Positions 7,740 to 50,312 of a DNA stretch of 64,000 nt are shown one piece after another. The position numbers were made by a program, and so were the translations under genes. The DNA lies in contig NZ_JAQOSP010000109.1 in the NCBI RefSeq assembly GCF_030068475.1, positions 1 to 64,000 on the forward strand, written 5' to 3'. Below the pieces are notes generated by a model, which saw only the letters and a program-made list of their open reading frames with translations, had not been told where the DNA came from and did no database searches. The DNA comes from Roseofilum acuticapitatum BLCC-M154. Its GTDB lineage: Bacteria > Cyanobacteriota > Cyanobacteriia > Cyanobacteriales > Desertifilaceae. Numbering within the stretch: position 1 is the first letter of the stretch; each line of letters opens with the position of its first letter.

Positions 7740-7819
7740 GTATGTTTTGTTCTGTTATCGGTGATTACGCTCCCATTTTAATCAATTTTCGGCGATCGCC
7801 ATTCCTGCTTGTCTTTTTA

Positions 7820-8728: not shown

Positions 8729-8787
8729 CCGGAGTTGAGGGCCCTTAGTGTTTTCCTCGGCCTATGATAAGGCTTTTGGAGTTAGAT

Positions 8788-9066: not shown

Positions 9067-10384
<1,318 letters not shown>

Positions 10385-27400: not shown

Positions 27401-28229
27401 ACAAGGAACCGGATTGGGATTACCCATTAGTCGTCAATTTGTACAATTGATGGGAGGAGATATTCAGGTTTTCTCTCAAGTTGGTTTCGGCACTCAATTT
27501 ACCTTTGATTTACTCCTCAAACCGATTTTAAATCAACCCCATAGCCTCAGAACTTCCAGTCGAGTGATTCATTTAGCCCCCCATCAACCGAGCTACCGTA
27601 TTTTAGTGGTGGATGACTCCTTAGATAATCGGCTCCTCTTAGAGTCTTTATTAAAAAGTGTAGGTTTTGAAGTACAACTAGCCAGCAATGGACAAGAGGC
27701 GATTTCTGTTTGGGAGACCTGGAATCCCCATCTCATCTGGATGGATATTCGGATGCCTGTAATGGATGGACTACAAGCAACTCAGTATATTAAATCTCTT
27801 ACTCAAGGACAATCGACCCGGATTATTGCCCTAACTGCCAGTGCTTTTGCTGAAGAACGGGAACAAGTCTTTGCCGTAGGATGCGATGATTTTCTCAGTA
27901 AACCTTTTCAAGATCAAGAATTATTTGAAAAAATTACCCAACATCTAGGTGTGGCCTATGTCTGTGATTATGTTGATCGTACCTCCCCATTATCGGTTTC
28001 AAACTCTGATGAATCGGCCACTCAGACTTCCATCAAATGGGATCTGATGCCCCAACCTTGGTTAGAAAGTCTTTACCAAGCGGCGCTAGAAGCTGATGCT
28101 GAAATAATTTTAGAATTGATTGAAGAAATTTCCGAAGATCATTCAAATATAGCAGAATACTTGAATAACTTGGTTGATAATTTTGATTTTGAATTAATCA
28201 CTAAAAACTTAAATTTAGTGTTATATTAA
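24405..28229 (+). CDS. CBS-PAS(5)-histidine kinase-receiver hybrid with C-terminal tail domain
   Basis: Domain order over 1274 aa: CBS pair (about 25-150), five PAS/PAC units (about 165-290, 300-410, 415-540, 545-670, 675-800), HisKA with His821 in NMSHELRTPLNAILGFTQL, HATPase (LLNLLGNAIKFTQQGG, DTGPGIAEEDL, GTGLGLPISRQFV), receiver (about 1064-1183, phosphoacceptor Asp1114 in LIWMDIRMPVMDG). A 60-aa tail WLESLYQAALEADAEIILEL ends in LVDNFDFELI. No membrane helices, so a cytosolic multi-signal kinase. The same tail ends two further kinases downstream. First of five same-strand signalling genes; the next starts 44 bp later. Confidence 0.92.
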   Translation: MHPSNSQIATLTEDEWIDFHPLTLEPQMLLSEAIAHWQLYQQCQPVPNPPSLALVVQDQRLVGLLHLSRCLPYLIAPESAEKITVEQLMEPEGITLEIADGETFSTQDYLSTLIAYFQQHQLTHLPLVTPSRKLIGLARLSTLLQNLSKRAEPRLPHSSFSSQTAFDQTFSQAVIGMAHIDLQGHFIEVNQTFCDLVGYCSSDLIHHSFFKLMVPQNLQSSDHHNYEAVTRRYLDRLLSGTLPFISIENNYCSQSGVQNWVNITISLVRDLSGEPAYFLSTIQDISDRKLLEQKLHSSEAELRSVFAAMTEIVLVMDRDSEVIKVSPTCPALYYQNNTDLIGETINQIIYGDYRSELMQHLQTVANQKKSLNFEYQLILNKQTLGFAATLSPMPEKKVIFVARNITEKQQSEEQLRLLKRSVEVSDNGILISDAQRQDLPIIYVNPAFEKISGYFSEEVLENPLLFLYENRLQKTEYNTIKKQIAQGNSFQFTCPSYRKNNQIFWSHLSLYPLRDPMGKLTHYVMLQSDITDRISAEEALKKSEKRWQLALKSNNDGIYDWDLEKNTIFYSARWKEMLGFSESEISDHPSEWMTRLHPDDFEQVMFTNLHYQPKEDNPLFTIEYRMRCKDGSYKWILDRGQILYDRQGEEIRIIGSYTDITERKESEEKLRESQQRLEFLVDQTPLGVIEWSVDWQIVEWNKAAERIFDYRRLDVLSSPHSFEILFTESKKTQAYNLMQALEAEEDTTYAICDNVRRSGEKIVCEWYNTVLMDRQNNVIGYASMIADITDRKQAEIALIHAKETAESANQAKSNFLANMSHELRTPLNAILGFTQLIDRSPNLDSVHRQQLRIINRSGEHLLSLINDILEMSKIEAGKITLNESQFNLWTLLDTLKEMLQIKAESKGLTLALVCSSEVPEYVEGDESKLRQILLNLLGNAIKFTQQGGVKLSVSAVPLPENSRLRLSFDVSDTGPGIAEEDLDSLFEPFVQTAVGRQSQQGTGLGLPISRQFVQLMGGDIQVFSQVGFGTQFTFDLLLKPILNQPHSLRTSSRVIHLAPHQPSYRILVVDDSLDNRLLLESLLKSVGFEVQLASNGQEAISVWETWNPHLIWMDIRMPVMDGLQATQYIKSLTQGQSTRIIALTASAFAEEREQVFAVGCDDFLSKPFQDQELFEKITQHLGVAYVCDYVDRTSPLSVSNSDESATQTSIKWDLMPQPWLESLYQAALEADAEIILELIEEISEDHSNIAEYLNNLVDNFDFELITKNLNLVLY

Positions 28230-28273
28230 GATCGGCTAAGTCAACCCAGAAAACAAGAATAAGTGGTGAATTC

Positions 28274-30109
28274 ATGGTTTTTTATAACTCAGAAGATTCT
28301 AATAAATACAATATTTTACTGGTTGATGACACTCCAGAAAATTTACGTTTGCTCTCTGATTTACTGAGTCAACAGGGTTATAAAGTGCGGAGTGTTATGA
28401 ATGGTAGAACAGCGATTAAAGCAGCTCAGGCAAAACCGCCGGATTTGATTTTACTTGATATTAATATGCCCCAAATGAATGGGTATCAAGTCTGTCAGGA
28501 ACTTAAAATAATTGATGAAACTCAAGAAATACCGATTATATTTATCAGTGCATTAAATGAGGTTTTTGATAAGGTTAAGGCCTTCCGAGTGGGAGGATGT
28601 GACTATATTAGTAAGCCCTTTCAAATTGAAGAGGTTCTCGCAAGAGTCAAACATCAATTGAAACTGAAAACAACTCAAAATGAACTGAAAGATTTAAATT
28701 TAAAACTCGAAGCACGAGTTCAAGAACGAACGCAAAAACTGCAAGAAAGTAATCAAGCCTTAAGCCAAGAAATTCAGGAACGCAAGCGAATTCAGCAGAA
28801 ACTGTTGGATATGGCTCTTCATGATTCCTTAACGGGACTACCAAACCGGGCTTTATTTATGGAACGACTCGAATCGGCTATCCAAGGTCTCAAGATGAGT
28901 TCAGATCGCCAATTTGCCGTTTTATTCCTAGACTGCGATCGCTTCAAAGTAATCAATGACTCCCTCGGCCATCTCGTCGGCGATCAACTCCTCCAGGCGA
29001 TCGCCCAACGAATCAACAGCCTCCTAGATCCCAACATGCTCCTCGCTCGCCTAGGCGGAGACGAATTTACCATACTCATAGAATCGACGGGCAGCCTAGA
29101 AGAAGTTCAAAACCTAGCAGAAACCATCCTCAAGAGCCTCTCCTACTCCTTCCAACTCCAACACCACGAAGTCTTTATTAACGCCAGTATCGGCATTGTC
29201 CTCAGCCATCCGGACTACCACAAACCCGAATATGTCCTCCGAGATGCCGACACCGCCATGTACAAAGCCAAAGCCATGGGTAAAGGACAATACCATGTCT
29301 TTGACCCCACCATGCACGAATTGGCGCTCAAACGGCTCAACCTAGAAACCGCACTCCGCAAAGCCATAGAACACCAAGAATTTCTCATTCACTACCAACC
29401 CATCATTAACCTGCAAACGGGTAAAATCAGTGGATTTGAAGCCCTCGTGCGCTGGCAACACCCCCAAAAAGGACTGATCAGCCCTGGAGAATTTATCCCC
29501 ATCTGCGAAGAAACCGGACTGATCAACGACATTGGCTATTGGGTCTTTCAGCAAGCCTGTCATCAACTCAAAATCTGGCAACAAACCCTCAAAAATGACA
29601 GCCTTAAAATCAGCATCAATCTCTCCGTCCGCCAATTCTCCCAAATAAACCTAATGGAAAAAGTGGCCGAAACCGTCACCCAAACCCAGATTTTGCCCCA
29701 GTGCCTCACCATGGAGATCACCGAGAGTGCCTTGATTGAAAACCCCATGCACGCCCGCACCCTCCTCCATGAAATCCGAGATCGAGACATTCACATTTCC
29801 CTAGATGACTTTGGTACGGGCTACTCTTCCCTGTCCTATCTCCATACCCTACCCATCGATATTCTAAAAATCGATCGCTCCTTTATCAACACCCTCAGTC
29901 AAGACCCCTCAGATCTTGGCCTGATTCCCCCCATTATCCAAATTGGCCAAACCCTGAACATGAAAGTGGTCGCTGAGGGCATAGAAACCCCAAAACAACT
30001 GGAAATCCTCAGACAACTCAACTGTGATTTTGGCCAAGGCTATTGGTTTGCCAAACCCCTCAATATCAGAGAAGCGACTGCCCTGCTGCAATCTAATCCC
30101 CAATGGTAG
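28274..30109 (+). CDS. REC-GGDEF-EAL bifunctional c-di-GMP protein
   Basis: The 611-aa protein comprises a receiver (residues 12-130, Asp62 in LLDINMPQMNG), a coiled coil (135-175), a GGDEF domain with intact RLGGDEFTIL, and an EAL domain with GFEALVRWQHP, EITESALIENP and DDFGTGYSSLSYL. Both active sites look complete, so it could make and degrade c-di-GMP; no RxxD inhibitory site precedes GGDEF. The receiver resembles that of the kinase at 34851 very closely, suggesting common phosphodonors. Codon usage changes sharply inside the gene: up to about 28900 it is AT-rich, later strongly C-ending. It sits between two orphan-type kinases. Confidence 0.93.
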   Translation: MVFYNSEDSNKYNILLVDDTPENLRLLSDLLSQQGYKVRSVMNGRTAIKAAQAKPPDLILLDINMPQMNGYQVCQELKIIDETQEIPIIFISALNEVFDKVKAFRVGGCDYISKPFQIEEVLARVKHQLKLKTTQNELKDLNLKLEARVQERTQKLQESNQALSQEIQERKRIQQKLLDMALHDSLTGLPNRALFMERLESAIQGLKMSSDRQFAVLFLDCDRFKVINDSLGHLVGDQLLQAIAQRINSLLDPNMLLARLGGDEFTILIESTGSLEEVQNLAETILKSLSYSFQLQHHEVFINASIGIVLSHPDYHKPEYVLRDADTAMYKAKAMGKGQYHVFDPTMHELALKRLNLETALRKAIEHQEFLIHYQPIINLQTGKISGFEALVRWQHPQKGLISPGEFIPICEETGLINDIGYWVFQQACHQLKIWQQTLKNDSLKISINLSVRQFSQINLMEKVAETVTQTQILPQCLTMEITESALIENPMHARTLLHEIRDRDIHISLDDFGTGYSSLSYLHTLPIDILKIDRSFINTLSQDPSDLGLIPPIIQIGQTLNMKVVAEGIETPKQLEILRQLNCDFGQGYWFAKPLNIREATALLQSNPQW

Positions 30110-30196
30110 ACTTCTACGATAAGCTATAACCGTGACCACTCAAAGCGGCATCTACACCCCTCATCCCTAGCATGAATTTTCTGATTCCCTAGAAGT

Positions 30197-32461
30197 ATGT
30201 CCAGATCTCCCTTCTTCCCCATCCTTTTAGTCGCTCCGTTATGCCTCTCAAGTGCGATCGCCATCGGACTAAGTGCATGGGTATATTTAAGAAGCGGACT
30301 CCCCATCCCTCCAGCCATCCAGTTAACCTGGATAACTCTCCTCTTAACCACCGCTTTAGGAATCAAAAACACCTACACCTTACACCGTCAGCTTCGCCAA
30401 CCCCCTAAAACCCCCTCACCTCCCCCAGACAACGATCAACATCAGCCCCCAGAAGTCTCCTCCAACCTCCTTCTCACCCTAGAACAGACCTTAAATACCA
30501 CAACTGACTTTCCCAGCACCCTCCACCTGATCCTCGAACAAATTTGTCAACTCACCGGTTGGACTTATGCCGAGGCCTGGATTCCCACGGCTGATAAAAG
30601 CGCCCTCCAATGTAGTCCCATCTGGTACAAAAATACCCAAACCCTCTCCCCCGATCATCTCAATACCCTACAAGACTTCCGCCACTACACCGAAGGCCTC
30701 ATCCTCCTACCCGAAGAAGATATCCCCGGACAAGTCTGGCATAGTAACCAACCCCAATGGTTTGGGAACCTCTCCCAAGATAATGATATTTTTTCTAGGG
30801 GAACCCTAGCCCATAAAGTCGGTCTAGGAGCTGCCTTTGGCCTGCCAATTCCCATCCCTGCTCAAGAAACCTTAACGCCTAACCTGATTCCTAGACGGTC
30901 TGCCACCTTGGGAATTTTAGTATTCTTTACCCATTATTCGTCCTTCCAAGATCCCTACTGGGTAAAACAACTCTCCTATCGGGCCCTCGACTTTGGTCGC
31001 ATTCTCCATCAAAAACAAGTCACTACAGAATTCAAAACTCTCTTCAGTGCGATCACTGATGTAATTTTGGTCTTTGATGCCCAAGGCTACATCCTGAATA
31101 TTGCCCCGACCACTCCCAAACCCCTTTACCAAATGCCTTCCCACCTGATTGGTAAAAGTGTACAAGATATCTTTGAATCGGAACAATCAGCGACCTTTAT
31201 CAATTGGATCTGGGAGAGTTTGAATACTCAAACCACCCTACAAACCGAATATCAACTCATCATAGAAGATCAAAGCCTGTGGTTTTCTGCCACGATTGCC
31301 CCGATTACGGATGCCTCTGGCATGGGTGATGCTGTCATTTGGATTGCTCGTGATATTACTGAGCGCAAAGAAGTGATGGAAGCCCTCTCTAGGGCTAAGG
31401 AAGTGGCAGAAACGGCCAATCAGGCTAAAAGTAATTTTTTGGCAAAAATGAGCCATGAATTGCGTACTCCCCTCAACGCGATTCTAGGGTTTACACAGGT
31501 GATGATCCGCCATTTGAGTGCTAATCCTACGGCTCTGAGTCCGGCTCAAATTGAAGAGCATTTTGGTTATCTGAAAGTGATTCATAACAGTGGGGAACAT
31601 TTATTAGACCTGATTAATGATTTGTTAAATTGGTCAAAAATAGAAGCCGGAAAAATGGAACTCCATCAGACTCGCTTCAATTTGTACGATATGCTCAGTA
31701 CCCTCTATCAAATGTTTAAACTTAAAGCAGATCATCAAGGGTTAAATTTGTCTTTTGATGTTTCGGCTAAGGTTCCTCCTTTTATTGAAGCCGATTCGGG
31801 AAAATTGCGCCAAGTGTTTATTAATTTATTAGGTAATGCTCTCAAGTTTACTCCCCAAGGGGGGATTAATGTGCGGGTAGATTTCTCCCATGATAGAACC
31901 TTGGAGGAGGCAACCTTAGTCTGTGAAGTTCAAGATACCGGAATTGGGATTGCGCCGAGTGAGTTGAATCACTTATTTGAACCCTTTGTACAAAGTTCGA
32001 GCGATCGCGGTTTTCAAGAAGGAACGGGTTTGGGTTTACCCATTAGTCAACAAGTAGTCGAACTGATGGGAGGTGCGCTAACCGTAGAATCGGAGGTAGG
32101 AAAAGGAAGTAAGTTCCGGTTTACTCTACCTGTCAAACTCGATGTTTCTTTAGTCTCCACTGTCCCTTCAGAACCCATAGAGTATTCCATACCAGCCCAT
32201 CTCAAACCCCTGAATACAGATTTGGAGATCAAACCGCAACTCTTTGAAATCGAAGATCTCAGTTATGTTCAATCCTCAGATTGGATAAAACTGCAACAAG
32301 CAACTTTAGCGGCTGAAGAAGAATTACTCCTCAAATTAATTGATGAAATCTTTATTCCTAACTCACAGATGCGTGAGTGTCTGACTGAATGGGTTCATGA
32401 TTTCCAATTCGATCGAGTCCATCAGTTAATTAGTGAGCAACTCTCTCAACAGGTAAATTGA
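30197..32461 (+). CDS. Membrane GAF-PAS histidine kinase with tail domain but no receiver
   Basis: The 754-aa protein has two N-terminal membrane helices (about 8-30 and 40-60), a Pro-rich linker, a GAF domain (about 92-275), a PAS domain (about 275-395), HisKA (KMSHELRTPLNAILGFTQVM) and HATPase (INLLGNALKFTPQGG, DTGIGIAPSEL, GTGLGLPISQQVVEL). After the ATPase comes a linker and directly the tail domain (WIKLQQATLAAEEELLLKLI to HDFQFDRVHQLI); its relatives at 24405 and 32461 carry a receiver at this point. The stop overlaps the next gene's start (TGATG), implying translational coupling and a joint complex. Confidence 0.9.
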   Translation: MSRSPFFPILLVAPLCLSSAIAIGLSAWVYLRSGLPIPPAIQLTWITLLLTTALGIKNTYTLHRQLRQPPKTPSPPPDNDQHQPPEVSSNLLLTLEQTLNTTTDFPSTLHLILEQICQLTGWTYAEAWIPTADKSALQCSPIWYKNTQTLSPDHLNTLQDFRHYTEGLILLPEEDIPGQVWHSNQPQWFGNLSQDNDIFSRGTLAHKVGLGAAFGLPIPIPAQETLTPNLIPRRSATLGILVFFTHYSSFQDPYWVKQLSYRALDFGRILHQKQVTTEFKTLFSAITDVILVFDAQGYILNIAPTTPKPLYQMPSHLIGKSVQDIFESEQSATFINWIWESLNTQTTLQTEYQLIIEDQSLWFSATIAPITDASGMGDAVIWIARDITERKEVMEALSRAKEVAETANQAKSNFLAKMSHELRTPLNAILGFTQVMIRHLSANPTALSPAQIEEHFGYLKVIHNSGEHLLDLINDLLNWSKIEAGKMELHQTRFNLYDMLSTLYQMFKLKADHQGLNLSFDVSAKVPPFIEADSGKLRQVFINLLGNALKFTPQGGINVRVDFSHDRTLEEATLVCEVQDTGIGIAPSELNHLFEPFVQSSSDRGFQEGTGLGLPISQQVVELMGGALTVESEVGKGSKFRFTLPVKLDVSLVSTVPSEPIEYSIPAHLKPLNTDLEIKPQLFEIEDLSYVQSSDWIKLQQATLAAEEELLLKLIDEIFIPNSQMRECLTEWVHDFQFDRVHQLISEQLSQQVN

Positions 32462-34800
32462 TGATCGCAATGGGTAACATAACTCGTCAGATCAAACAGC
32501 AGTGGAATCGCATTAGGTTAGGGCGTATCCGGGACAAGATCGGATCGGGTTATGTGTTAGCCATTGGCACAGGATTAGCGGGTTCCTTAGTTGGCTTGGT
32601 GGTGGCGGATTATTATCAAGGACAGGGAATTCTACAATTGGCGGATGCGAATATTCAGGCTCAATTGTTGGTTCATTTCCAGGTGGAAATTGAGCGATCG
32701 CAGCGACTCGCCCTTTTACTCACCACTGTAGTCGGCGATCGCCAAGCTCTAGAACTCTACCAAAACAGTCTCAAAGACAACCTAGGGCAGATCGACACCA
32801 TCCATCAAAACCTACAAACCTTTATCACAGGTAATCCCGCCTGGTTAGCCGTTCCTGTAGAAACCTTTGGGCCATTTTTAGACCAGTATATCCAAGCCTT
32901 AGCCCAATATAGCGATCGCATCCAACAGATTATTAACCAACCGAATATTTCCTTAGAAGAGCAGAACAATCAACTCAGATCCCTGATTCTCTCCCAACAA
33001 CAAGAATTAGAAGACTTAGCCACTACCCTCGATCGAATGCTGATCATGGCTCAACAGCAAGCTCGGCAAGCCGAAGTCGAACTCGAAAATGCCCAAGGTC
33101 TAGAAAAAAGCATTATTATTACCAGTAGCCTCTTAGCCGTGGCGATCGCCGGTTGGATCGCCCTACGCACCACCCAAGCCATTCTCAGTCCCCTAGAAAA
33201 ACTCACCCACTTAGCCAGCACCGCCACCCAAGACGAAAACTGGCAACTCCGAATACCCATCCACACCCAAGACGAAATCGCCACCCTGGGTAAAACCCTC
33301 AACGCCCTCATGGAAAGAGTACAAACCCATACCGAGCAACTCCTCCAAGCCAAAGAAGCCGCCGAAAAAGCCAATCAAGCCAAAAGCATATTCCTCGCCA
33401 AAATGAGCCATGAATTGCGTACACCGCTCCATGCCATTCTCGGATTCACCCAAATTATGGTTAAAGAGCAAAACTTACCCGGCAAACATCAAGAACAACT
33501 ACAAACCATCTACAGCAGTAGCCAACATCTACTCGGCCTAATTAACGACATTTTAGACTTATCCAAAATCGAAGCCGGAAAACTAGAGCTTTTACCCCAC
33601 TCCTTTAGCTTACCCACATTCATCCATCATTTAGAAAGTATCTTACTATTCAAAGCCAAAAAGAAAAGCCTCGATCTCCAGATCGAAATTCAAGCAAATG
33701 TCCCCGATCAACTCTACACCGATGAACAGAAACTACGCCAAATCCTACTCAATTTACTCAGTAATGCCATAAAATTCACTGATCAAGGCGTAATTTCCTT
33801 AACCATCGCCCTTGCCAATCAACCAGACACTCTAGAATTTACCATCTCCGACACCGGTATGGGGATTGCCAGCGAAGAATTAGACCAACTTTTTCAACCC
33901 TTTGAACAAACCCAAAGTGGCAAACAATCCCAGGAAGGAACTGGACTAGGATTAACCATTAGCCGCCAATTAGTCCATCTCCTCGGAGGAACCCTCACCG
34001 TATCAAGTCAACTCAATCTAGGAACCGTCTTTACGTTTGATCTCCCCCTCATCTCTAATCCACAGACAACAGAACCCATACCTAGAGTCGAGCGCAGAAT
34101 TCAAGGCATTGCCTCCACAGACCAAACCTATCGCATTTTAGTCGTGGATGATAAATGGGAAAACCGGGAAATTCTCCGTTGCTTGCTCACTCCTTTAGGC
34201 TTTGAAGTGCAAGCAGCCACTCAAGGAGAAGAAGCCCTTGCGCTGTGGGAACAAGAATCAGTAGATTTGATTTTAACCGATATTCGGATGCCCATCCTAG
34301 ACGGTTATGGTCTAGTCGCCACTATCCGTCAACGAGAACAGCAACGTGCCCTCACCCCTGTTCCCATCATCGTCACCACTGCCAGTACCTTTGAAGAAGA
34401 GCGTCAGCAGATGTTGGACACCGGATGTAATGATTTAGTCCATAAACCCTTTCCTGAATCCCTAATTTTAGAGAAAATTGCTCAGTATTTAGAACTAGAA
34501 TATACTTATGAATCAGAACCAGAAAGTGATGCTGATCCCAACTCCCCCCCTCAAGCTGCCCAATTCTCCCTTGCAGATGCCATGGCCCAACAACCGATAG
34601 AATGGATTGCAGCCTTACAAAAAGGAGCAACTGAAGCCGATGCCGATCTTATTGTGCCCTTGATCGACCAACTCCCCACCTCTCAATTAGAATTGAGACA
34701 ACAGTTAGGTAATTGGGTCGATAATTTCCAGTTTGAAGCGATTTGTGAGATAACAGAAGAGTGTATTCGCCAAGAAAGTCACCAGTTTATTACTCGCTAA
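32461..34800 (+). CDS. Membrane HAMP histidine kinase-receiver hybrid with tail domain
   Basis: I take ATG 32461, which overlaps the previous stop (TGATG); ATG 32470 is an alternative. Domains over 779 aa: TM1 (about 28-50), a helical extracytoplasmic sensor region rich in Gln and Leu (50-210), TM2 (about 212-232), HAMP (235-290), HisKA (KMSHELRTPLHAILGFTQIM), HATPase (LNLLSNAIKFTDQG, GTGLGLTISRQLVHL), receiver (YRILVVDDKWENR, phosphoacceptor in ILTDIRMPILDG) and the tail (WIAALQKGATEADADLIVPL to VDNFQFEAICEI). It probably senses an external signal and passes phosphate within the five-gene cluster. Confidence 0.91.
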   Translation: MIAMGNITRQIKQQWNRIRLGRIRDKIGSGYVLAIGTGLAGSLVGLVVADYYQGQGILQLADANIQAQLLVHFQVEIERSQRLALLLTTVVGDRQALELYQNSLKDNLGQIDTIHQNLQTFITGNPAWLAVPVETFGPFLDQYIQALAQYSDRIQQIINQPNISLEEQNNQLRSLILSQQQELEDLATTLDRMLIMAQQQARQAEVELENAQGLEKSIIITSSLLAVAIAGWIALRTTQAILSPLEKLTHLASTATQDENWQLRIPIHTQDEIATLGKTLNALMERVQTHTEQLLQAKEAAEKANQAKSIFLAKMSHELRTPLHAILGFTQIMVKEQNLPGKHQEQLQTIYSSSQHLLGLINDILDLSKIEAGKLELLPHSFSLPTFIHHLESILLFKAKKKSLDLQIEIQANVPDQLYTDEQKLRQILLNLLSNAIKFTDQGVISLTIALANQPDTLEFTISDTGMGIASEELDQLFQPFEQTQSGKQSQEGTGLGLTISRQLVHLLGGTLTVSSQLNLGTVFTFDLPLISNPQTTEPIPRVERRIQGIASTDQTYRILVVDDKWENREILRCLLTPLGFEVQAATQGEEALALWEQESVDLILTDIRMPILDGYGLVATIRQREQQRALTPVPIIVTTASTFEEERQQMLDTGCNDLVHKPFPESLILEKIAQYLELEYTYESEPESDADPNSPPQAAQFSLADAMAQQPIEWIAALQKGATEADADLIVPLIDQLPTSQLELRQQLGNWVDNFQFEAICEITEECIRQESHQFITR

Positions 34801-34850
34801 TATATGCAATTGTTAAATTTTATAGTGTAGCTTAACTCGCTTTCCCTCCC

Positions 34851-36233
34851 ATGAATCACACTCCCAATCATCCAGAACCCGCTAATATTTTGTTGATTGA
34901 TGATATGCCCAACAATCTTCGCTTGCTGTCGAGTTTGTTAGGTAAGCAAGGATATAAGGTCAGAAGCGTGATTAATGGAGCCATGGGACTCAAAGCGGCT
35001 CAAGCGAAACCACCGGATTTAATTTTGCTCGATATTAATATGCCCGACCTCAATGGTTATGAAGTCTGTACTAAACTCAAGGAACATGAAATAACCCAAG
35101 AAATACCCGTCATTTTTTTGAGCGCATTAGACGATGTGATTGATAAGGTAAAAGCTTTCCGTGTCGGTGGCTCAGATTATATTACCAAACCTTTTCAAAT
35201 TGAAGAAGTGCTAGTACGGGTACAAAATCAGTTACAACTGCGACAAGCACAAAAAATGCTGGCCCAACAAAATGTGATTTTAGAGCAAGAAATCTGCGAT
35301 CGCAAAAAAATTCAGGTATCTCTAGAAGAACGAGAAACAGAGCTGAAACAACAAACTGAGCGTTTAGAAGCCGCTTTAATGAAAATTCAGAAAACTCAAT
35401 TACAACTGGTTCAAAGTGAAAAAATGGCCAGCTTGGGACAACTGGTTGCAGGTATTGCCCATGAAATTAATAATCCGATCAGCTTTATTTACGGTAATGT
35501 CCATTATGTCAGAGATTACTTAGATGATTTAGTCGATACCATAAAAAAATATCAGAAAAATTATCCTGAACCGACAGAAGATATTAAAGCGTTTACGGAA
35601 GAAATTGATTTAGATTTTGTGATTGACGATCTCAAGATGATGATGACTTCCATGGAAAGTGGTGTGGAAAGAATTCATGGGATTGTTTTGGGACTGCGGA
35701 CTTTTTCTAGACTCGATGAAGCCGCGATTAAATCCGTAGACTTACATGAAGGGATTGAGAGTACCCTATTAATTGTTCAACATCGATTGCACCAAAACCC
35801 TAATCGACCAGCTATTAAAGCGATCAAAAACTATGGTCAGTTGCCTAAAGTCACCTGCTATTCTGGACAAATTCATCAAGTTTTTCTGCATCTGATTGAA
35901 AATGCTATTGATGCCCTAGAAGATCAAACCTTTGATGGTTTAGCTTCGGATGATTCTATTCCTACTTTAGAAATTAGCACTCACCTGATGAACGATGAAC
36001 AAGTGCAAATTTGTTTTAAGGATAATGGGGTTGGAATTCCAGATGAGATAAAAACGCAAATTTTTAATCCATTTTTTACGACTAAATCCGTCGGTAAGGG
36101 GAGTGGTTTGGGGCTTTCCATTTGCTATCAAATTATTGTGGAGCAACATCAAGGACAACTGAGTTATACCCCATTGCCTGATGGGGGGAGCCAATTTACG
36201 ATTCAAATTCCGATTCATCTGAATGAGTCATGA
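34851..36233 (+). CDS. Receiver-histidine kinase (REC-HK), cytosolic
   Basis: The 460-aa protein starts with a receiver ([20 protein letters not shown]; Asp61 in [11 protein letters not shown]), then a long coiled coil (about 128-192), then a kinase core of the [17 protein letters not shown] type (His204) and an HATPase domain ([36 protein letters not shown]). REC-first kinases typically have their activity gated by phosphorylation of the receiver, so it probably sits downstream of the neighbouring hybrid kinases. It starts 50 bp after the previous gene and closes the cluster; no DNA-binding regulator follows. Confidence 0.92.
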
Positions 36234-42816: not shown

Positions 42817-45069
42817 TTATCCCCCCAAAGTACCATAGTTAAACTCAAGCTTTTTTCCCAGATTAAACGGATGGGGCTTATGAATCCCATAACCCTGAGC
42901 ATAGTTAATCCCCAAGCCTCGCACCTGCTCTAAAATTCCTTGATTTTCAATCGATTCGGCAATCGTTTTCAAACCCATCACTTGGGCAATACGCTGAATC
43001 GATTCAACCATCACCCGATTCACAGGATCGTCAATCAAACTTTTAATAAATGTTCCATCAATCTTTAAGTAATCAATCGGTAATTGCTTCAAATAAGTAA
43101 ATGAAGACATGCCACTGCCAAAATCATCCAAAGCAAACTGACAACCCAACTCTTTTAATTCCGTGATAAACCTGACTGCCTGACTTAAGTGAGTAATGGC
43201 CACCGTTTCTGTAATCTCAAAACCAATTAGAGAGGGTGGAATATGATATAACCAAAATTGTTCCTTAAGAAACTCTAAAAACGAAACATCATTAAAACTA
43301 GCTCCTGATAAATTGACCAAATAAATGGGCTTCAAAAGGCGAGTAGATTTACTTCCCGATCCTTCACTGATGTGACTTGATAACTGTTTAAATAAATTAC
43401 GAATTACCCATCGATCGATTTCTGGCATCAAATCATAACGTTCAGCCGCCGGTAAGAATGCCATAGGAGGAATCAGTGTTCCATTGCCATCAATCATGCG
43501 GATAAATAATTCACCACAAGGGCGATTTTTGGATGTAGAATTAATGGGAATAATTTGCTGGATATACAAGCAAAATTGATTCTCTTCTAAGGCGCGATTA
43601 ATTCGAGCGACCCATTCCATATCCCCTTGGCGTTTAGCCACTTCCCGATCTTCAGCTTGGTAAATATGAATCCGGTTCCGTCCACCATCTTTGGCCGCAT
43701 ACATTGCCGTATCTGCCGCACTTAGGGCAATATGTTCATTGTTAATTAAGCGATCGATCGGGACTAAGCCAATACTGACTCCTATTGTAAACAGTTTGTC
43801 TTCCCAAACAAAGCGAAAACCTTGAATGGTTTCAATGATTTTCTGAGCAACTTTTTGTCCTTCTGCCAGGGAGCAGTAATGCAACAATAACCCAAATTCA
43901 TCTCCACCTAAACGGGCAAAAGTGTCCGTTTTACGAATTTTACTTTGGAGAATTGCTGTGATTTGAATCAGAAGTTGATCTCCGGCAGAATGACCACAGG
44001 TATCATTGACAATTTTGAATTGATCTAAGTCTAAATAGCATAAAATATGCTGTTGATTAAATTGATGGGTTTCTAGAAGAGCAGCTTTTAAGCATTGCTC
44101 AAATTCGCGGCGATTAATTAAGCCGGTGAGGGGATCGTGGCTGGCTTGCCAAGAGAGTTGATGGGCAAGATTGCGGGCTGAGGTGACATCTCGACAAACA
44201 ATCACAGTTCCCACGATGCGATCGCCCTTGAAACGGATAGGAGCAATGCATAGTTCAATAATGTACTGTTGGCGATCGCTCTTGGAGTACAGGCTGTAGT
44301 TCGAGACTTTGATAATTTTTCCCGTGGTTAGGCTTTGACTCACTAAGAATTCAATCGGTTTTTGCTTAATATCGCTGCTAGAGAAAATTTCCCGAACCGA
44401 TTTGCCTTGCGTTGCACCACTGGTTAAACCAATCAGATTTTCTGCTATGGGGTTGAGGAATTCAACTTTATTTTTCAGATTGGTGACAATCACTGCATCA
44501 CCAATAGAGTTGAGCGTGATTTGAGCCAGTTCTTTCTCTTGCTGAAGGGCTTGTTCAAGATTCTGGCGATCGCTAATTTCTTGTTTCAGACGCAGATTCG
44601 CTTGCACTAAATCACTGGTGCGCTGAACCACCCGATTTTCTAAGGTTTCATTCGCTTTTCGCAGAGCATCAGAAGCTTGTTTGCGTTCAATCGCATAGCG
44701 CAGAGATCTCATCAGCAGCTCCGTATTTAACTGCCGTTTGATCAAATAATCTTGCGCCCCTTGACGCACTGCATCAACCGCCAAGGAACTATCGGTATTA
44801 TTGGTAAGTACAATAATCGGTACATCTGGCGCTTTCTCGATTAGAGGAGACAGGGACTCTAGCCCCTCAGCATCCGGTAAACTCAGATCCAGCAAGATCA
44901 CTTTAAACACCTGCTCCTCCAGTTGATGGAGCGCTTCTGATAACCGACTCACATGAGTTACTTCAACTTCCATAGAGGGCGCTTGTTTTAAACGCTCTTG
45001 TAAGAGACGAGCTTCTGCACGGTTATCTTCGATTAACAAGATCTCAATTAAGGGGTCTTCCACAGCCAA
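42817..45069 (-). CDS. REC-PAS-GGDEF-EAL c-di-GMP protein
   Basis: Domains over 750 aa: receiver (8-125, Asp61 in LLDLSLPDAEG), coiled coil (130-180), PAS (about 185-305), GGDEF (RLGGDEFGLLL) preceded by an RKTD I-site five residues upstream, and EAL. The EAL motif itself reads GELFIRM, keeping the catalytic Glu, and the downstream acidic residues (EITETVAI, DDFGSGMSSFTYL, YLKIDGTF, IAESIEN) are present, so phosphodiesterase activity is plausible. The I-site predicts product inhibition of cyclase activity. It follows the Rcp1-like and phytochrome genes on the same strand, which suggests light-dependent control. Confidence 0.92.
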   Translation of the reverse strand: MAVEDPLIEILLIEDNRAEARLLQERLKQAPSMEVEVTHVSRLSEALHQLEEQVFKVILLDLSLPDAEGLESLSPLIEKAPDVPIIVLTNNTDSSLAVDAVRQGAQDYLIKRQLNTELLMRSLRYAIERKQASDALRKANETLENRVVQRTSDLVQANLRLKQEISDRQNLEQALQQEKELAQITLNSIGDAVIVTNLKNKVEFLNPIAENLIGLTSGATQGKSVREIFSSSDIKQKPIEFLVSQSLTTGKIIKVSNYSLYSKSDRQQYIIELCIAPIRFKGDRIVGTVIVCRDVTSARNLAHQLSWQASHDPLTGLINRREFEQCLKAALLETHQFNQQHILCYLDLDQFKIVNDTCGHSAGDQLLIQITAILQSKIRKTDTFARLGGDEFGLLLHYCSLAEGQKVAQKIIETIQGFRFVWEDKLFTIGVSIGLVPIDRLINNEHIALSAADTAMYAAKDGGRNRIHIYQAEDREVAKRQGDMEWVARINRALEENQFCLYIQQIIPINSTSKNRPCGELFIRMIDGNGTLIPPMAFLPAAERYDLMPEIDRWVIRNLFKQLSSHISEGSGSKSTRLLKPIYLVNLSGASFNDVSFLEFLKEQFWLYHIPPSLIGFEITETVAITHLSQAVRFITELKELGCQFALDDFGSGMSSFTYLKQLPIDYLKIDGTFIKSLIDDPVNRVMVESIQRIAQVMGLKTIAESIENQGILEQVRGLGINYAQGYGIHKPHPFNLGKKLEFNYGTLGG

Positions 45070-45209
45070 TCACCCTTCCCAACCATTTTGATATTTATGA
45101 TACAGTTTTTAAGCCTATTTTCATATTCTAGAAGGAATGTTCTCCCTTAGAACATCAAAGTTATCTTTTGTTTACAAAAGTTAACTATTTAGCCAAAAAC
45201 CTTTAGGGA

Positions 45210-45650
45210 TCAAGCCAGAGGCAGAGAAACGGTGCGAAACCAAAATACTTCGATTTGTTCAACCAGATGAAAAAGCTGTTTTAGATTACTGGGTTTATGA
45301 AGATAACAATTTGCATGTAAATTATAGGTTTCTTGAATATCTTCGGGTCGTTGAGATGTACTTAAAATCAAAACCGGAATATGTTTTAGAGTTGGATCGG
45401 CTTTTATTTCTGCTAATACTTCTCGACCATTTTTTCGGGGTAAATTTAGGTCTAGCAGCACCAGATCTGGAAGGATGCGTTCAGTAAATGGAGGCTCAGA
45501 ACGCAAATAGGCGATCGCATCTACCCCGTTGCCTACGGATTGAATCTGATACGGTTCCGTCATTTTCTTGAACCCTTCCTGAATTAAACGTACATGGGCC
45601 GAATTATCCTCAATCATTAAAATGCGATGAGGTTGAGCCAAATGAGTCAT
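45210..45650 (-). CDS. Rcp1-like single-domain response regulator
   Basis: The 146-aa protein consists of a receiver only (IEDNSAHVRLIQEGFKK, phosphoacceptor Asp67 in LLDLNLPRKNGREVLAEIK, LSTSQRPEDIQETYNLHANC, switch Lys in YLHKPSNL). It is of the Rcp1 type that pairs with cyanobacterial phytochromes. It begins 115 bp downstream of the phytochrome-like kinase and ends 140 bp upstream of the REC-PAS-GGDEF-EAL gene, all on the same strand. It is likely phosphorylated by the phytochrome kinase. Confidence 0.88.
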   Translation of the reverse strand: MTHLAQPHRILMIEDNSAHVRLIQEGFKKMTEPYQIQSVGNGVDAIAYLRSEPPFTERILPDLVLLDLNLPRKNGREVLAEIKADPTLKHIPVLILSTSQRPEDIQETYNLHANCYLHKPSNLKQLFHLVEQIEVFWFRTVSLPLA

Positions 45651-45765
45651 TTTAAGTTATTACCTACGTTTTATATTAAAAAATGTTAATTGCTTTCAAG
45701 TAATCATAATCATAGAGATCTCTAATGTCAAGTCTAAACCTCGTACTAATTAAACCCTTCAGCAC

Positions 45766-47991
45766 TTAGATAGTTCGCTTAGGCAAAGTAAAGTAAAAGG
45801 TCGATCCTGCACCTAAATCCGATTCTACCCATATTCTTCCTCCGTGAAATTCCACTATTTTTTTACATATAGCTAGTCCAATTCCCGTGCCTGGGTATTC
45901 TTCGCGAGTGTGGAGACGTTGGAAAATCGTAAAAATACGATCGGTCATTCCTTTCTCGATACCAATTCCATTATCCTGTACCCAAAATAACCACTCTTCT
46001 GTCTCTTCTCGAACTCCGATATAAATCTCAGGAGTGCTATCCCGATGAAACTTTAACCCATTACTAATTAAATTCTGAAACAGTTGTGTTAATTGAGTGG
46101 GATCAGCCACAATCTCCGGTAGAGCATCATAGGCGATCTGAGCCTCCATTTCAGCAATTCTCACCTGTAAATTGCTTAAACTGCGTTTGAGACAATCCTG
46201 AGAATTCACCCGTATCAACTCTTGTCCTTTTCTCCCCACCCTTGAATAGGCTAATAAATCATCAATCAAACCTTGCATATGGCTGACTCCTTCCACCACA
46301 AATTCTAGGAAGTCTTTACCATCTCGATCGAATTGATCTTCATAACGCATTCCCAGTAATTCCACATAACTAGCAATCAGATTTAATGGCTCTTGTAAAT
46401 CATGGGAAGCAATATAAGCAAATTTTTCTAGTTCTGCATTAGAGCGCTCTAACTCTTTGGTCAATTTGGATAATTCATCCACTTGATTTAAGATAATATG
46501 AATGAGAGACTTACGCAATTCTTTAGCGGCTTCTATTTCATGAGTTTTCCAGGGCAAAGATGTACCGCGAATAATTTCCTTCCAGGCTTCAAAAGAATTG
46601 CGCGGCAAGAGTTTGATGTTATTCTCATCATCCCTAATTTCTCGATAACTTTCATAGGGATTTCCTCCCCAATTAACAGTCTGGAGGACTTCGGGTCGAA
46701 ACCAGAGGAGATAATTATTGTAGGGGATATGAATCGCTAATAATCCCACTGCTATTCCCTGGAAAGTTTCTGCTCCTGAGTAAACATGGGATAAATTTTG
46801 AGTGTAGAAAATATCTTTTTCTGGATGTTGATTGAGCCATTGAATTAACTTGTTCAGCTCTTTTTCTGCGGGAGTTTTTCCTAGAGTAGTATAGGAGCCG
46901 TTCCAAAAAATGGCAGCGCCTTGGGAATTGACTAAATCTAATAAATTGGGTCGATGATTAACCAAACCATCAACAAAGGTATGATCCCGACCCATAAAAG
47001 CCAGCAGTTGAGATTGAACACTACTAGATTCAACCCGATATTCATAGATTTCATGATCGGTTTTGGTACTCAACTCTAAGGAAAAGAGTTGACAGATGAA
47101 TTCTCCAACCTTCCTGATTTCATAGGGGATATATTTGGGGCTATTATGGTGACAAGAGAGTAAGCCCCATAACTTTTCTTCTTTTTTCAAAGAAAAGACT
47201 AGACTCGCACCCACTTCCATGTTTTGCAAGTATTCTTGATGACAACTGGAATATCCCCGTAAAATGGAATGGCTTAAATTGAGATTTTCCTCGCCAACCG
47301 ATTGGGGATGGGATAATATGGGAATAGTTTTTGCATGAATATCTGGAATCATCCTCATCCAAATTTTATCTAATATTTCTAAAGTAAATTGAGTATCTTG
47401 TCGGGGAAAATATAAACCCAAAAAGGGTTCCAGATCGAAATTTTTAGCTTCAGCAATGACTTGTCCATTAAAGTCTTCATCATATTGATAAACCATCACT
47501 CGATCGATTTGAGTGATTTTTTTCATTTCTTCAGCTAAGGTTTGGCAAGATCGTTGTAAGTTGATATCTGCTTTGAGCTTTTTACTGACTTCCTGGGTTA
47601 GGCTTAATAGAGAATACAGTTCAAGGTTATCAACTGATAAATTGCGATCAAATTCAAGGACAATATGCCGATCAATATTGCGATGAATAAAGGCAGAAAT
47701 GATTTTAAGAGTGTTTTTGATTTTGATTGGGGTATAAATGGGCAAAATTCCAGAGTCAGGCAATTGAGCAATAGACTCTTCTAGGTGGTTTTGATCGAGT
47801 ATCCGATCTACAGTATGACCGAGTAATTCTTGGGGGGAAATGCTGAACAGATCGCCGATATTTTCACTGACGTAAATGACTCTAAAAGAGCTTTCTTCTA
47901 GAGCAATTAATGCTCCATAGCTTTGAATGTAACCGATTCGAGTAATGTCTTGTTCGTAGGGCGGAATTTCTCGACCATAGTTGATTAACAT
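45766..47991 (-). CDS. Cph1-like phytochrome histidine kinase
   Basis: Domains over 741 aa: PAS (about 15-115), GAF (about 135-310), PHY (about 320-505), HisKA (His530 in FAYIASHDLQEPLN) and HATPase (LFQNLISNGLKF, QDNGIGIEKGM, GTGIGLAICKKIVE). The bilin-binding Cys is present (Cys250 in GYSSCHQEYLQNM, matching Cph1 Cys259), followed by the conserved His251, and LSCHHNSP supplies the second pocket His. The PHY tongue motif reads LLPRNSFEAWKEI. Unusual features: the PASDIP motif is PRQDTQ (Asp199 kept) and the N-terminal IQPHG motif is IQSYG. It is a probable red/far-red sensor heading a regulator and c-di-GMP gene. Confidence 0.9.
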   Translation of the reverse strand: MLINYGREIPPYEQDITRIGYIQSYGALIALEESSFRVIYVSENIGDLFSISPQELLGHTVDRILDQNHLEESIAQLPDSGILPIYTPIKIKNTLKIISAFIHRNIDRHIVLEFDRNLSVDNLELYSLLSLTQEVSKKLKADINLQRSCQTLAEEMKKITQIDRVMVYQYDEDFNGQVIAEAKNFDLEPFLGLYFPRQDTQFTLEILDKIWMRMIPDIHAKTIPILSHPQSVGEENLNLSHSILRGYSSCHQEYLQNMEVGASLVFSLKKEEKLWGLLSCHHNSPKYIPYEIRKVGEFICQLFSLELSTKTDHEIYEYRVESSSVQSQLLAFMGRDHTFVDGLVNHRPNLLDLVNSQGAAIFWNGSYTTLGKTPAEKELNKLIQWLNQHPEKDIFYTQNLSHVYSGAETFQGIAVGLLAIHIPYNNYLLWFRPEVLQTVNWGGNPYESYREIRDDENNIKLLPRNSFEAWKEIIRGTSLPWKTHEIEAAKELRKSLIHIILNQVDELSKLTKELERSNAELEKFAYIASHDLQEPLNLIASYVELLGMRYEDQFDRDGKDFLEFVVEGVSHMQGLIDDLLAYSRVGRKGQELIRVNSQDCLKRSLSNLQVRIAEMEAQIAYDALPEIVADPTQLTQLFQNLISNGLKFHRDSTPEIYIGVREETEEWLFWVQDNGIGIEKGMTDRIFTIFQRLHTREEYPGTGIGLAICKKIVEFHGGRIWVESDLGAGSTFYFTLPKRTI

Positions 47992-48027: not shown

Positions 48028-48798
48028 TTAAGAGTTAAGCAGGGTTTGAGCGATCGCCAACCCTAGGGCAATCCCCAAGACTCCTATAGTCGCTATATAA
48101 TCAAGGGGATGGATAGATGAGGCATATCTTAACATGCCATGAGTATTACCATATCCCCGCAAACGCATGGCTTGATAAACCCTCTCAGACTGTTCATAGG
48201 TTCTCACTAGGAGAGTGCCGATTAAAGCGGCTAAGGTTTGAATATTTTGCCAACTGAAGCGCTTGGGGTCAAATCCCCGCAAACGAGAAGCTATTTTCAG
48301 GGTTTTCAGGCGATCGCCAAATTCAGTTAAATAACGATAGCTCAAAAGCATCATATCTCCTACCACCAAAGGTAACCCCAATTGTCCCATTGCCTTAATC
48401 ATAAGCAAAAAGGGAGCTGTACCAAACAAAATCAGAGCCACCACCAAAATGCAAACAAAGCGCACACTGATTAAAATTACGGCTAAACATCCCTCCAAAC
48501 GCAAGGCAAATATTCCCCATTCCCACAGCACCGTTTCTCCAGCGATGAAGGGTAAAAAGATCACGATCCCCAACAAAAACCAGCCTGGATAGCGCAAACG
48601 TTGCCTTAAAAAAGACCAGGGGAGGCCAGAGATAGCATATAAAACTAAGGTTATTGCCAATATTATGGGTAACAAGATTAAAGATTGAATTCCTGAAAAG
48701 GCAAAAATTAACCCCATTAAGCCAATGAACTTACATCGAGGTTCCCAATGATGGACAGGAGAGTGAAGATCGGCGTAAGTATCGAGTTCTAATCTCAT
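48028..48798 (-). CDS. Energy-coupling factor transmembrane protein (CbiQ/EcfT family)
   Basis: The 256-aa protein has five to six membrane helices and two coupling-helix motifs, ASRLRGF and AMRLRGY, which contact the ATPase subunits of ECF transporters. The N-terminus (DTYADLHSPVHHWEPRCKFI) is of CbiQ type. Such proteins energise vitamin or metal (Co, Ni) uptake with CbiO ATPases and a substrate-binding S component. None of those lie in the window, so it is a stand-alone T component whose substrate cannot be deduced. It is 36 bp upstream of the phytochrome gene on the same strand. Confidence 0.88.
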   Translation of the reverse strand: MRLELDTYADLHSPVHHWEPRCKFIGLMGLIFAFSGIQSLILLPIILAITLVLYAISGLPWSFLRQRLRYPGWFLLGIVIFLPFIAGETVLWEWGIFALRLEGCLAVILISVRFVCILVVALILFGTAPFLLMIKAMGQLGLPLVVGDMMLLSYRYLTEFGDRLKTLKIASRLRGFDPKRFSWQNIQTLAALIGTLLVRTYEQSERVYQAMRLRGYGNTHGMLRYASSIHPLDYIATIGVLGIALGLAIAQTLLNS

Positions 48799-48988: not shown

Positions 48989-49276
48989 TTAATAGCGCTC
49001 TCTACGGTCTCTATCTCTACGTCCTCGATTATCCTCACGGGGTTTGGCCTTATTCACTCTAATCTGGCGACCCATCCATTCCGCTCCATCAAGATTGGAA
49101 ATAGCACTGTCTTCGTCCGCTTCCTTCTCCATGTCTACAAAAGCAAACCCCCTAATCCGACCAGTTTCCCGGTCAGTCGGCAAAGAGACTCTCTTGACGG
49201 AACCATAGTCAGTAAAAACTGATCTTAGGTCGTCTTCCGTGGCCTCATAAGATAAATTACCGATATAAACTGTCAT
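48989..49276 (-). CDS. RRM-domain RNA-binding protein (Rbp) 1
   Basis: The 95-aa protein is one RRM: RNP2 is VYIGNLSY at the N-terminus and RNP1 is RGFAFVDM in the middle, followed by a short Arg/Asp-rich tail ending RRDRDRRERY. Cyanobacterial Rbp proteins are induced by cold and influence mRNA localisation and stability. The sequence starts with a good Shine-Dalgarno (AGAGGT). First-listed of three tandem paralogues, but transcribed last; between it and the next copy lies an 11-bp-stem inverted repeat. It does not carry the conserved promoter/leader seen before the other two. Confidence 0.93.
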   Translation of the reverse strand: MTVYIGNLSYEATEDDLRSVFTDYGSVKRVSLPTDRETGRIRGFAFVDMEKEADEDSAISNLDGAEWMGRQIRVNKAKPREDNRGRRDRDRRERY

Positions 49277-49348
49277 GAATTACCTCTAGAATCGATTGCA
49301 GATAAACCTATGAATTGAGTTGGTTCCCAATCATAGGTCTTGAGTTAC

Positions 49349-49391
49349 AAAGGATTCAGTTCCGCTCGTTGTAGTTGTCTCTGAATCCTTT
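49349..49391 (-). terminator. Inverted repeat downstream of Rbp 2
   Basis: AAAGGATTCAG (49349-49359) and CTGAATCCTTT (49381-49391) form an 11-bp perfect stem with a 21-nt loop, 19 bp after the Rbp 2 stop. There is no T-run, so it may be an attenuator or mRNA-end stabiliser rather than a classical terminator. Confidence 0.45.
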
Positions 49392-49409
49392 CCTATTCGA
49401 TGTTGCGTC

Positions 49410-49682
49410 TTAGTAGCGTGGTTGTCTGTTTGAGCGAGTTTCACGGGGTTTGGCTTTGTTAACCTTCAAAACCCGCTCCATCCATTCAGCTCCATCGAGT
49501 TCATCAATGGCTTGATCTTCTTGAGCTTCCGTTTGCATTTCCACAAATCCAAAACCCCGCATCCGACCGGTTTCCCGGTCAACGGGCAAACTTACACGCG
49601 TTACACTGCCATATTCAGCAAAGACTTCTCTAACATCCTCTTCATTAACTTTATAGGACAAATTCCCAATATAAACGGACAT
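49410..49682 (-). CDS. RRM-domain RNA-binding protein (Rbp) 2
   Basis: The 90-aa single-RRM protein (RNP2 VYIGNLSY, RNP1 RGFGFVEM) has a short tail ending in NRQPRY. It is very similar to its two neighbours, so the three arose by tandem duplication. A strong Shine-Dalgarno (GGAGGT) precedes the start. A conserved element about 75-110 bases upstream is shared with Rbp 3 and probably contains the promoter and leader. Confidence 0.93.
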   Translation of the reverse strand: MSVYIGNLSYKVNEEDVREVFAEYGSVTRVSLPVDRETGRMRGFGFVEMQTEAQEDQAIDELDGAEWMERVLKVNKAKPRETRSNRQPRY

Positions 49683-50033
49683 GCGATACCTCCAGAATCA
49701 TTTAGGTGCAGAAGTTGCTATTCGGAGATACGCCAAGCATTAACACAAACACAGTGATCTACCGATTTTAGTCTTCAGTAGACAGTTTAGCACACACTAG
49801 AGCCAATAGTGCGGTATTGATGAAGATTATTTTTGGGTAAACCCTGTCGGTTGAAACGAGATTGGAAATCCGGTTCTTGCCCAACTGGACTTTGGGATTT
49901 GGCGATCGCCTGTTTCTTAACGCTTCGACTCATCATCGTTATCATCATAGGTCTTTTCCCGCTTAGTCCTTTGACTGAACTTTCACCTCCAGCCAAGGGA
50001 CTCAACTTTCCTCCTGATGTCTTAACCGGACAA
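49683..50033. other. Intergenic region between Rbp 2 and Rbp 3
   Basis: This 351-bp spacer holds the conserved Rbp 2 promoter/leader (49757-49792) and a HIP1 site near 49902. An open frame on the minus strand (49787-50074), overlapping the 3' end of Rbp 3, has no recognisable motif and is not accepted as a gene. Confidence 0.55.
49757..49792 (-). promoter_or_regulatory. Conserved promoter/leader element of Rbp 2
   Basis: On the minus strand it reads TGCTAAACTG, five variable bases, then TGAAGACTAAAATCGGTAGA and T. The same arrangement with identical spacing lies upstream of Rbp 3 (50397-50432). It sits 75 bases before the Rbp 2 start. The TGCTAA part may be a -10 region and the ATCGGTAGAT part the start of the mRNA leader; that split is inferred. 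Confidence 0.65.
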
Positions 50034-50312
50034 TCATCGGCTGCGATTATGACCACGGGATTCACGGTTTTCACGCGGTTTAGCCTTATTTACCTTCATC
50101 ATTCTTCCCATCCACTCCGCTCCATCAAGGGTTTCTATCGCCTTAGCTTCTTCTGCCTCCGTACTCATATCTACAAACGCAAAACCCCGCTTCTTACCTG
50201 ATTCACGGTCAACGGGTAGAAAAACGTTGGTCACAGTGCCATACTCTGAAAAGACGTCCCTGAGATCGTTTTCTTCGGCTTTAAAAGAAAGGTTACCAAT
50301 ATATACAGTCAT
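50034..50312 (-). CDS. RRM-domain RNA-binding protein (Rbp) 3
   Basis: The 92-aa single-RRM protein (RNP2 VYIGNLSF, RNP1 RGFAFVDM) ends in a short basic tail RESRGHNRSR. It is the first transcribed of the three paralogues. The Shine-Dalgarno is weaker (AGAGTGAG). It shares the conserved upstream promoter/leader element with Rbp 2, implying joint regulation, for example by temperature as reported for cyanobacterial rbp genes. Confidence 0.93.
   Translation of the reverse strand: MTVYIGNLSFKAEENDLRDVFSEYGTVTNVFLPVDRESGKKRGFAFVDMSTEAEEAKAIETLDGAEWMGRMMKVNKAKPRENRESRGHNRSR

Follow-up and report, generated by a model that had tools for sequence, protein, structure and literature searches.

A phytochrome with an altered DIP motif, an Rcp1-type receiver and a REC-PAS-GGDEF-EAL protein in Roseofilum acuticapitatum: a candidate light-to-c-di-GMP signalling locus

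The roles of Cph1-type phytochromes in cyanobacteria are, to our knowledge, largely unclear. A stretch of 64,000 nucleotides from Roseofilum acuticapitatum BLCC-M154 (contig NZ_JAQOSP010000109.1, positions 1 to 64,000; hereafter the window) carries a phytochrome gene followed by genes for a single-domain receiver and for a GGDEF-EAL protein with a receiver of its own. This arrangement raises the question of whether a phytochrome may control c-di-GMP turnover through phosphotransfer, as proposed in a sequence-only reading that saw in these genes a light-to-c-di-GMP module headed by a Cph1-type kinase.

Gene arrangement in the window and in the genus

Analysis of the window yielded the following features:

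45766..47991, minus strand: DT-type phytochrome histidine kinase, PAS-GAF-PHY-HisKA-HATPase, 741 aa, ATG start; assigned by Pfam, residues and AlphaFold match
47389..47418, minus strand: GAF stretch with altered DIP motif, G-L-Y-F-P-R-Q-D-T-Q, Pro column deleted
47239..47244, minus strand: codons of the bilin pair Cys250-His251, placed by sequence and residue check
45703..45731, minus strand: TTGACA-N17-TATGAT promoter-like site before rcp1, 11/12 consensus match
45210..45650, minus strand: Rcp1-type single-domain receiver, 146 aa, ATG start; nearest solved relatives RcpA (1k68) and Rcp1
42817..45069, minus strand: REC-PAS-GGDEF-EAL protein, RbdA-like, 750 aa from TTG; probable GTG start at 45063 (748 aa)
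48028..48798, minus strand: CbiQ-type transport protein; 36 bp separate its gene from the downstream phytochrome gene, which it adjoins in 6/6 congeneric genomes

All three open reading frames of the locus are intact, and their layout as first read, on one strand with gaps of 115 bp between the phytochrome gene and rcp1 and 140 bp between rcp1 and the third gene, was confirmed. Pfam searches, in which every domain scored above the curated cut-offs, gave the order PAS_2-GAF-PHY-HisKA-HATPase_c for the phytochrome; the succession of PAS_2, GAF and PHY is that of a knotted phytochrome. The rcp1 product consists of a Response_reg domain alone and, by its receiver residues and its closest similarity (RcpA, 161.5 bits), is the single-domain Rcp1-type regulator it had been taken for. 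The third product, Response_reg-PAS-GGDEF-EAL with intact motif residues, is at the domain level the dual c-di-GMP enzyme with its own receiver that had been described.

The order phytochrome, rcp1, REC-PAS-GGDEF-EAL with the CbiQ gene upstream was found in all six genomes of the genus examined, that of the window included, which argues that the grouping is not due to chance. The sequence GTG-GA at the start of the third gene is also kept in 6/6 congeneric genomes, and for this reason GTG at 45063 is a likelier start than TTG at 45069. In one congener (G294) the matched reading frame is intact (746 aa): the TAG within the match is the terminal stop, the match overrunning the frame by six bases. 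Ratios of dN/dS were calculated over seven pairs, of which the pair of the window with L098 was saturated or nearly so. Within the phytochrome they came to 0.11-0.21 in the sensory module and 0.06-0.14 in the kinase; rcp1 gave 0.01-0.14 and the third gene 0.04-0.11. The sensory module is the fastest-evolving part, and the ratios indicate that purifying selection is acting on all three genes. A pseudogene reading for the window genome was rejected: the reading frame is intact in 6/6 genomes of the genus and dN/dS lies well below 1.

Three further observations were made in the window. The interval between rcp1 and the enzyme gene (45070-45209) holds an AT-rich imperfect inverted repeat, recognized by eye and only partly kept in the congeners. 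Upstream of the CbiQ gene lie three small consecutive genes of RNA-recognition-motif-like type (48989-50312; one of the three was checked with Pfam). The plus strand carries a second signalling run (24405-36233), composed of a multi-PAS hybrid kinase, a REC-GGDEF-EAL gene (28274-30109), two kinases and a REC-kinase.

Between the end of the promoter-like site and the rcp1 ATG lie 52 bp. Taken as a whole, promoter-like sites are no commoner in the sequence than in shuffles of it (15 versus a mean of 16.9), and this one was singled out for a conservation check on account of its 11/12 match. Its TTGACA is invariant in 6/6 congeneric genomes, and in five of them the -10 box comes close to consensus. 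Since the site is conserved, the three genes may not make up one simple operon, and expression of the receivers may be uncoupled from that of the phytochrome.

The bilin pocket and the distribution of DT phytochromes

The PxSDIPxxAR stretch of the GAF domain is altered in the window phytochrome and its relatives. The column of the DIP motif reads Asp-Thr, with the Pro deleted, in 17/17 intact phytochromes of this type (DT phytochromes) and Asp-Ile-Pro in 50/50 other cyanobacterial phytochromes examined. The sequence-only reading was right about the bilin Cys, which is Cys250 followed by His251 (presumably C259 and H260 of Cph1) and is present with its His in 17/17 DT phytochromes, but not about a Cph1-type kinase, as the DIP motif is absent and the protein belongs to a separate clade. 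For lack of Asp-Ile-Pro a plain Cph1 locus was discarded. The genome contains a second phytochrome, of the DIP type and with a different kinase.

The DNA pattern for GL[HY][FY]PxxDT, which can miss variants, was run over 388 genomes of the order. It matched in 24 genomes and identified 19 phytochromes; the other five matches (G553, G539, G174, G074 and G514) had no phytochrome at the site. Six of the 19 belong to the window's own genus, seven to genus g3 and one each to g116, g154, g164, g122, g139 and g178, altogether in four families. The open reading frame is intact in 17 of them (6 genera) and broken in G297 and G319. Given this occurrence, 17 intact frames in 6 genera plus two broken copies in two further genera, a sequencing error was rejected as the origin of DT. 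A phylum sample of 291 genomes, which overlaps the order sample, gave matches in 11: four known DT loci of this order and seven sites without a phytochrome. No DT locus outside the order was found with the exact DNA pattern in these 291 genomes.

A phylogenetic tree calculated with the motif masked, from 12 of the 17 DT and 18 of the 50 other sequences, showed the DT phytochromes to be monophyletic (ultrafast bootstrap 100, SH-aLRT 98). Rooted on CphB-like proteins, the DT clade adjoins the canonical Cph1-like proteins; a placement tree of 43 rows gave a value of 99, with a long-branch warning. DT arose once on the tree, and the link between pocket and output thus represents one evolutionary event.

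Apart from the motif, the residues checked were unchanged in 17/17 DT phytochromes: the pocket Asp, Tyr176, Arg222, Arg254, Cys259, His260, Tyr263 and His290 (numbers that we take to be those of Cph1), the PRxSF residues of the tongue, and the His, Asn and Asp of the kinase. In the window protein the PRxSF motif of the tongue and the W(A/G)G motif are represented by Arg464, Ser466 and Trp441, and the kinase His is His530. An AlphaFold model (mean pLDDT 79.1, with values below 50 in the tongue; pTM 0.57) matched phytochrome sensory modules (6bao_A, Z 35.4, rmsd 5.9, 484 residues aligned). Three genes of the Fe_bilin_red (PcyA/Peb) family were found in each of 6/6 congeneric genomes.

Passages of PMC11035067 describe the DIP motif as strictly conserved and regard its Asp as critical to the photocycle, so the photochemistry of DT phytochromes may be impaired or different. 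The DT variant is named nowhere in those passages of the phytochrome literature on the DIP motif that were available to us. An unlikely alternative is that the DT phytochrome has ceased to be a red/far-red switch and is a locked or poorly photoactive pigment or an apoprotein, with a kinase that feeds both receivers constitutively or under some other gate. The loss of DIP from all DT members is consistent with it, as are a sensory module that evolves faster and has a higher dN/dS than the enzyme, the broken copies in g116 and G319, and the loss of Pfr when the DIP Asp was replaced by Leu in other phytochromes (passages of PMC11035067). The invariance of the Asp, of the Cys-His pair and of all other checked pocket and tongue residues argues against it, and so does a sensory-module dN/dS that, at 0.11-0.21, is still low. 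Passages of PMC12420706 further place the Cph1 variants I208V, I208L and Y203F in type 1, which forms Pfr, and D207N in type 2; because the first three photoconvert, a Thr in the Ile column, as distinct from the deletion of the Pro, may be tolerated.

Four residues past the pocket Asp, in the pocket helix, 14 of the 17 DT phytochromes have a Cys (for example the L063 phytochrome, 7107-9350) and three a Thr, namely the window protein at aa 203 and two congeners. The same column is Ala in 49 of the 50 other phytochromes and Cys in none. An additional Cys near the pocket Asp is reminiscent of tandem-Cys and dual-Cys phytochromes and of DXCF cyanobacteriochromes, from which the window protein differs by its Thr; the position of the Cys in DT phytochromes presumably also differs from theirs. 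We tentatively raise the idea, to which we give only a small chance, that DT phytochromes are a photochemically distinct knotted class, in which loss of Ile-Pro and, in most members, gain of the Cys would have linked the bilin at a second site or changed the photocycle, as a specialisation towards c-di-GMP control via phosphotransfer. If this were true, the presence of Thr at the Cys position in part of the genus, the window included, would provide natural pairs with and without the Cys.

Downstream output and receiver docking

The genes downstream of the phytochrome were read at 67 loci, 17 DT and 50 DIP. Of the DIP loci, 33 were hand-picked from a larger list of phytochrome matches and 17 were among the matches listed in a receiver-based scan, which favours loci with a third gene. 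At 16/17 intact DT loci rcp1 is followed by a REC-PAS-GGDEF-EAL gene, which at L160 is split over two open reading frames and at L168 is cut by the contig end; near the phytochrome of the remaining intact locus, L167, there is no rcp1 and no gene for the enzyme. The third gene of the DIP loci codes for a REC-histidine kinase in 47/50 and is missing in three (L106, L107 and L135), and a GGDEF or EAL third gene occurs in 0/50. The REC-kinase output of cph1-rcp1-(REC-kinase) loci is accordingly replaced in the window by REC-PAS-GGDEF-EAL. A literature search joining phytochrome, rcp1, GGDEF and cyanobacteria retrieved no paper.

The trio was also found in genus g3, of another family, where it was first noticed in G002, G066 and G207. 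It recurs, intact or nearly so, in five genera, and broken remnants occur in two more (L103, L166), the locus being broken in the g116 genomes. In this sister genus (L102, L103 and L104) rcp1 has been retained alongside broken or cut genes for phytochrome and enzyme, and a REC-kinase gene stands next to the GGDEF-EAL gene. This side-by-side arrangement is perhaps an intermediate or decaying state.

The PAS-GGDEF-EAL part of the window enzyme matched the solved region of PA0861 (RbdA) with 526 bits over about 570 aa; RbdA is named among the phosphodiesterases of Pseudomonas aeruginosa in passages of PMC7290235. The GGDEF motif and the eight EAL catalytic positions are intact in the window enzyme, with ELF in place of EAL; the catalytic set was taken to be E,N,E,D,D,K,E,Q. 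This set is complete in the window and in 14/16 DT third-gene reading frames, that of L160 lying on its second frame and L168 being cut by the contig end, and the GGDEF motif is intact in 15/16 (L160 again on the second frame). The RxxD I-site is not conserved. As to possible effectors, a PilZ domain is absent from the window genome and present in 1/6 congeneric genomes. A ComFB domain was found in 6/6, the window genome included; ComFB proteins bind c-di-GMP in cyanobacteria.

In the enzyme tree the GGDEF-EAL parts of the DT loci (10 loci used) and of g116 form a single clade (aLRT 91). The same PAS-GGDEF-EAL family is fused to a DIP-type phytochrome in one polypeptide of 1104 aa in genus g35 (L067, L068 and L069, the frame being split in L069). 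These fusions sit apart from the DT and g116 clade, and phytochrome and enzyme family were thus paired more than once.

Both receivers have the phospho-Asp. Window Rcp1 has E14, D15, D67, T98 and K119, with D67 as the phospho-Asp, and these residues are kept in 16/16 DT and 48/49 DIP rcp1 genes. The phospho-Asp of the third-gene receiver is D61. This receiver shares 52-65% identity with third-gene receivers of canonical DIP loci and 31-42% with those of CphB-like loci. In the receiver tree the enzyme-linked receivers were not all grouped (three label changes, weak support).

The alpha1 helix of receivers is the usual contact with the kinase. It was compared between Rcp1 and the third receiver at 58 loci where both were readable, 48 canonical or DT and 10 CphB-like. 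Identity was 41.9% within the canonical and DT loci and 28.6% within the CphB-like loci, versus 9.8 and 12.1% across the classes; outside alpha1 it was 25-28% in all comparisons. In a sliding window the within-minus-between difference was 0.29 at alpha1 and -0.03 to 0.06 in windows clear of it, so that no other receiver region stands out. As alpha1 is alike within a kinase class and not across classes, the pattern, which rests on two kinase classes, suggests that both receivers dock on the same phytochrome.

This covariation of alpha1 with kinase class bears on a second alternative, in which the phytochrome signals to Rcp1 only and the adjoining REC-PAS-GGDEF-EAL protein takes its input from a different kinase or from its own PAS domain. 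Transfer of phosphate from Cph1 to Rcp1 is known, and the promoter-like site and the 140-bp gap would allow separate expression. A similar REC-PAS-GGDEF-EAL gene in Leptolyngbya sp. PCC 7375 (L175, 7834-12481) adjoins a kinase without a phytochrome match and an Rcp-like receiver, in the same order. Against these points stand, besides alpha1, the linkage at nearly all intact DT loci and the fact that the enzyme is the conserved member; we regard an Rcp1-only pathway as improbable.

Proposed signalling path and its place among known systems

We favour, with moderate confidence, the interpretation of the trio as a dedicated light-to-c-di-GMP signalling locus. The proposed module gained partial support from the recurrence of the trio in five genera, the alike alpha1 helices, the kept catalytic residues and the fusion of a phytochrome to the same enzyme family in another genus; it has to be amended in that the kinase is not of the plain Cph1 type and the genes may not form a single transcription unit. 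At Cys250 the DT phytochrome would carry a bilin, most likely phycocyanobilin, and its kinase would be switched by light. The kinase would phosphorylate two receivers with its docking helix in common, Rcp1 and the one in front of PAS-GGDEF-EAL. In the third protein, phosphorylation would shift the balance between GGDEF and the RbdA-like EAL, most likely towards net hydrolysis of c-di-GMP, and the change in c-di-GMP would link light to motility or attachment. Rcp1 may be a second output or a phosphate sink. The third gene carries PAS-GGDEF-EAL where the common cph1-rcp1-(REC-histidine kinase) locus has the kinase, and the lineage with this exchange is also the one whose bilin pocket is without DIP. 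Gene order, residues, conservation and covariation are what the sequences show directly; the biochemistry and the behaviour in this path are inferred. Our confidence is tempered by the possibly impaired or different photochemistry of the pocket, the fast sensory module, the promoter-like site, L167, the broken loci, the single event behind the pocket-output link, the two kinase classes on which the alpha1 pattern rests, the ungrouped receiver tree, the unconserved I-site and the lack of PilZ in this genome.

The locus resembles Cph1-Rcp1 of Synechocystis and CphA-RcpA of Calothrix/Fremyella, where a PAS-GAF-PHY-kinase with the GAF Cys is followed by a single-domain receiver, and differs from them by DT and a deletion in place of DIP, by its separate clade and by the third gene. 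The cph1-rcp1-(REC-histidine kinase) loci of Nostoc, Calothrix, Fischerella, Moorena, Chroococcus and others have the same gene order and a homologous third-gene receiver, but a histidine kinase where the window has PAS-GGDEF-EAL. RbdA shares PAS-GGDEF-EAL with the third protein; the receiver in front is particular to the latter, for which regulation by phosphotransfer would be expected. Phytochrome-type input to c-di-GMP turnover is also found in PadC, a fused phytochrome-diguanylate cyclase, and in cyanobacterial Cph2 (passages of PMC5812497), where sensor and enzyme are in one polypeptide, whereas the window has separate genes for two-component proteins.

A lead to the function may come from Phormidium lacuna, which is transformable. 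Among the phytochromes compared here, identity was 57-99% among canonical members, 40-55% between DT and canonical and 40-51% between CphB-like and canonical members. According to passages of PMC8794177, a cphA mutant of P. lacuna has a reduced red-light photophobotactic response, and its CphA (764 aa) is 44% identical to Cph1. This value lies outside the canonical range and inside the other two; CphA may be a member of the DT clade, and a CphB-like identity fits as well.

We conclude that the locus is a cyanobacterial phytochrome two-component system of known kind in a new combination, an altered light pocket together with a c-di-GMP enzyme replacing the downstream kinase. A clade in which pocket and effector differ together offers a two-component phytochrome whose output, c-di-GMP, can be measured directly, and in the DT clade nature has itself experimented with a motif that is otherwise termed strictly conserved. 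The proposed path would show how a single exchange of output domain turned one widespread locus from kinase output to second-messenger output.
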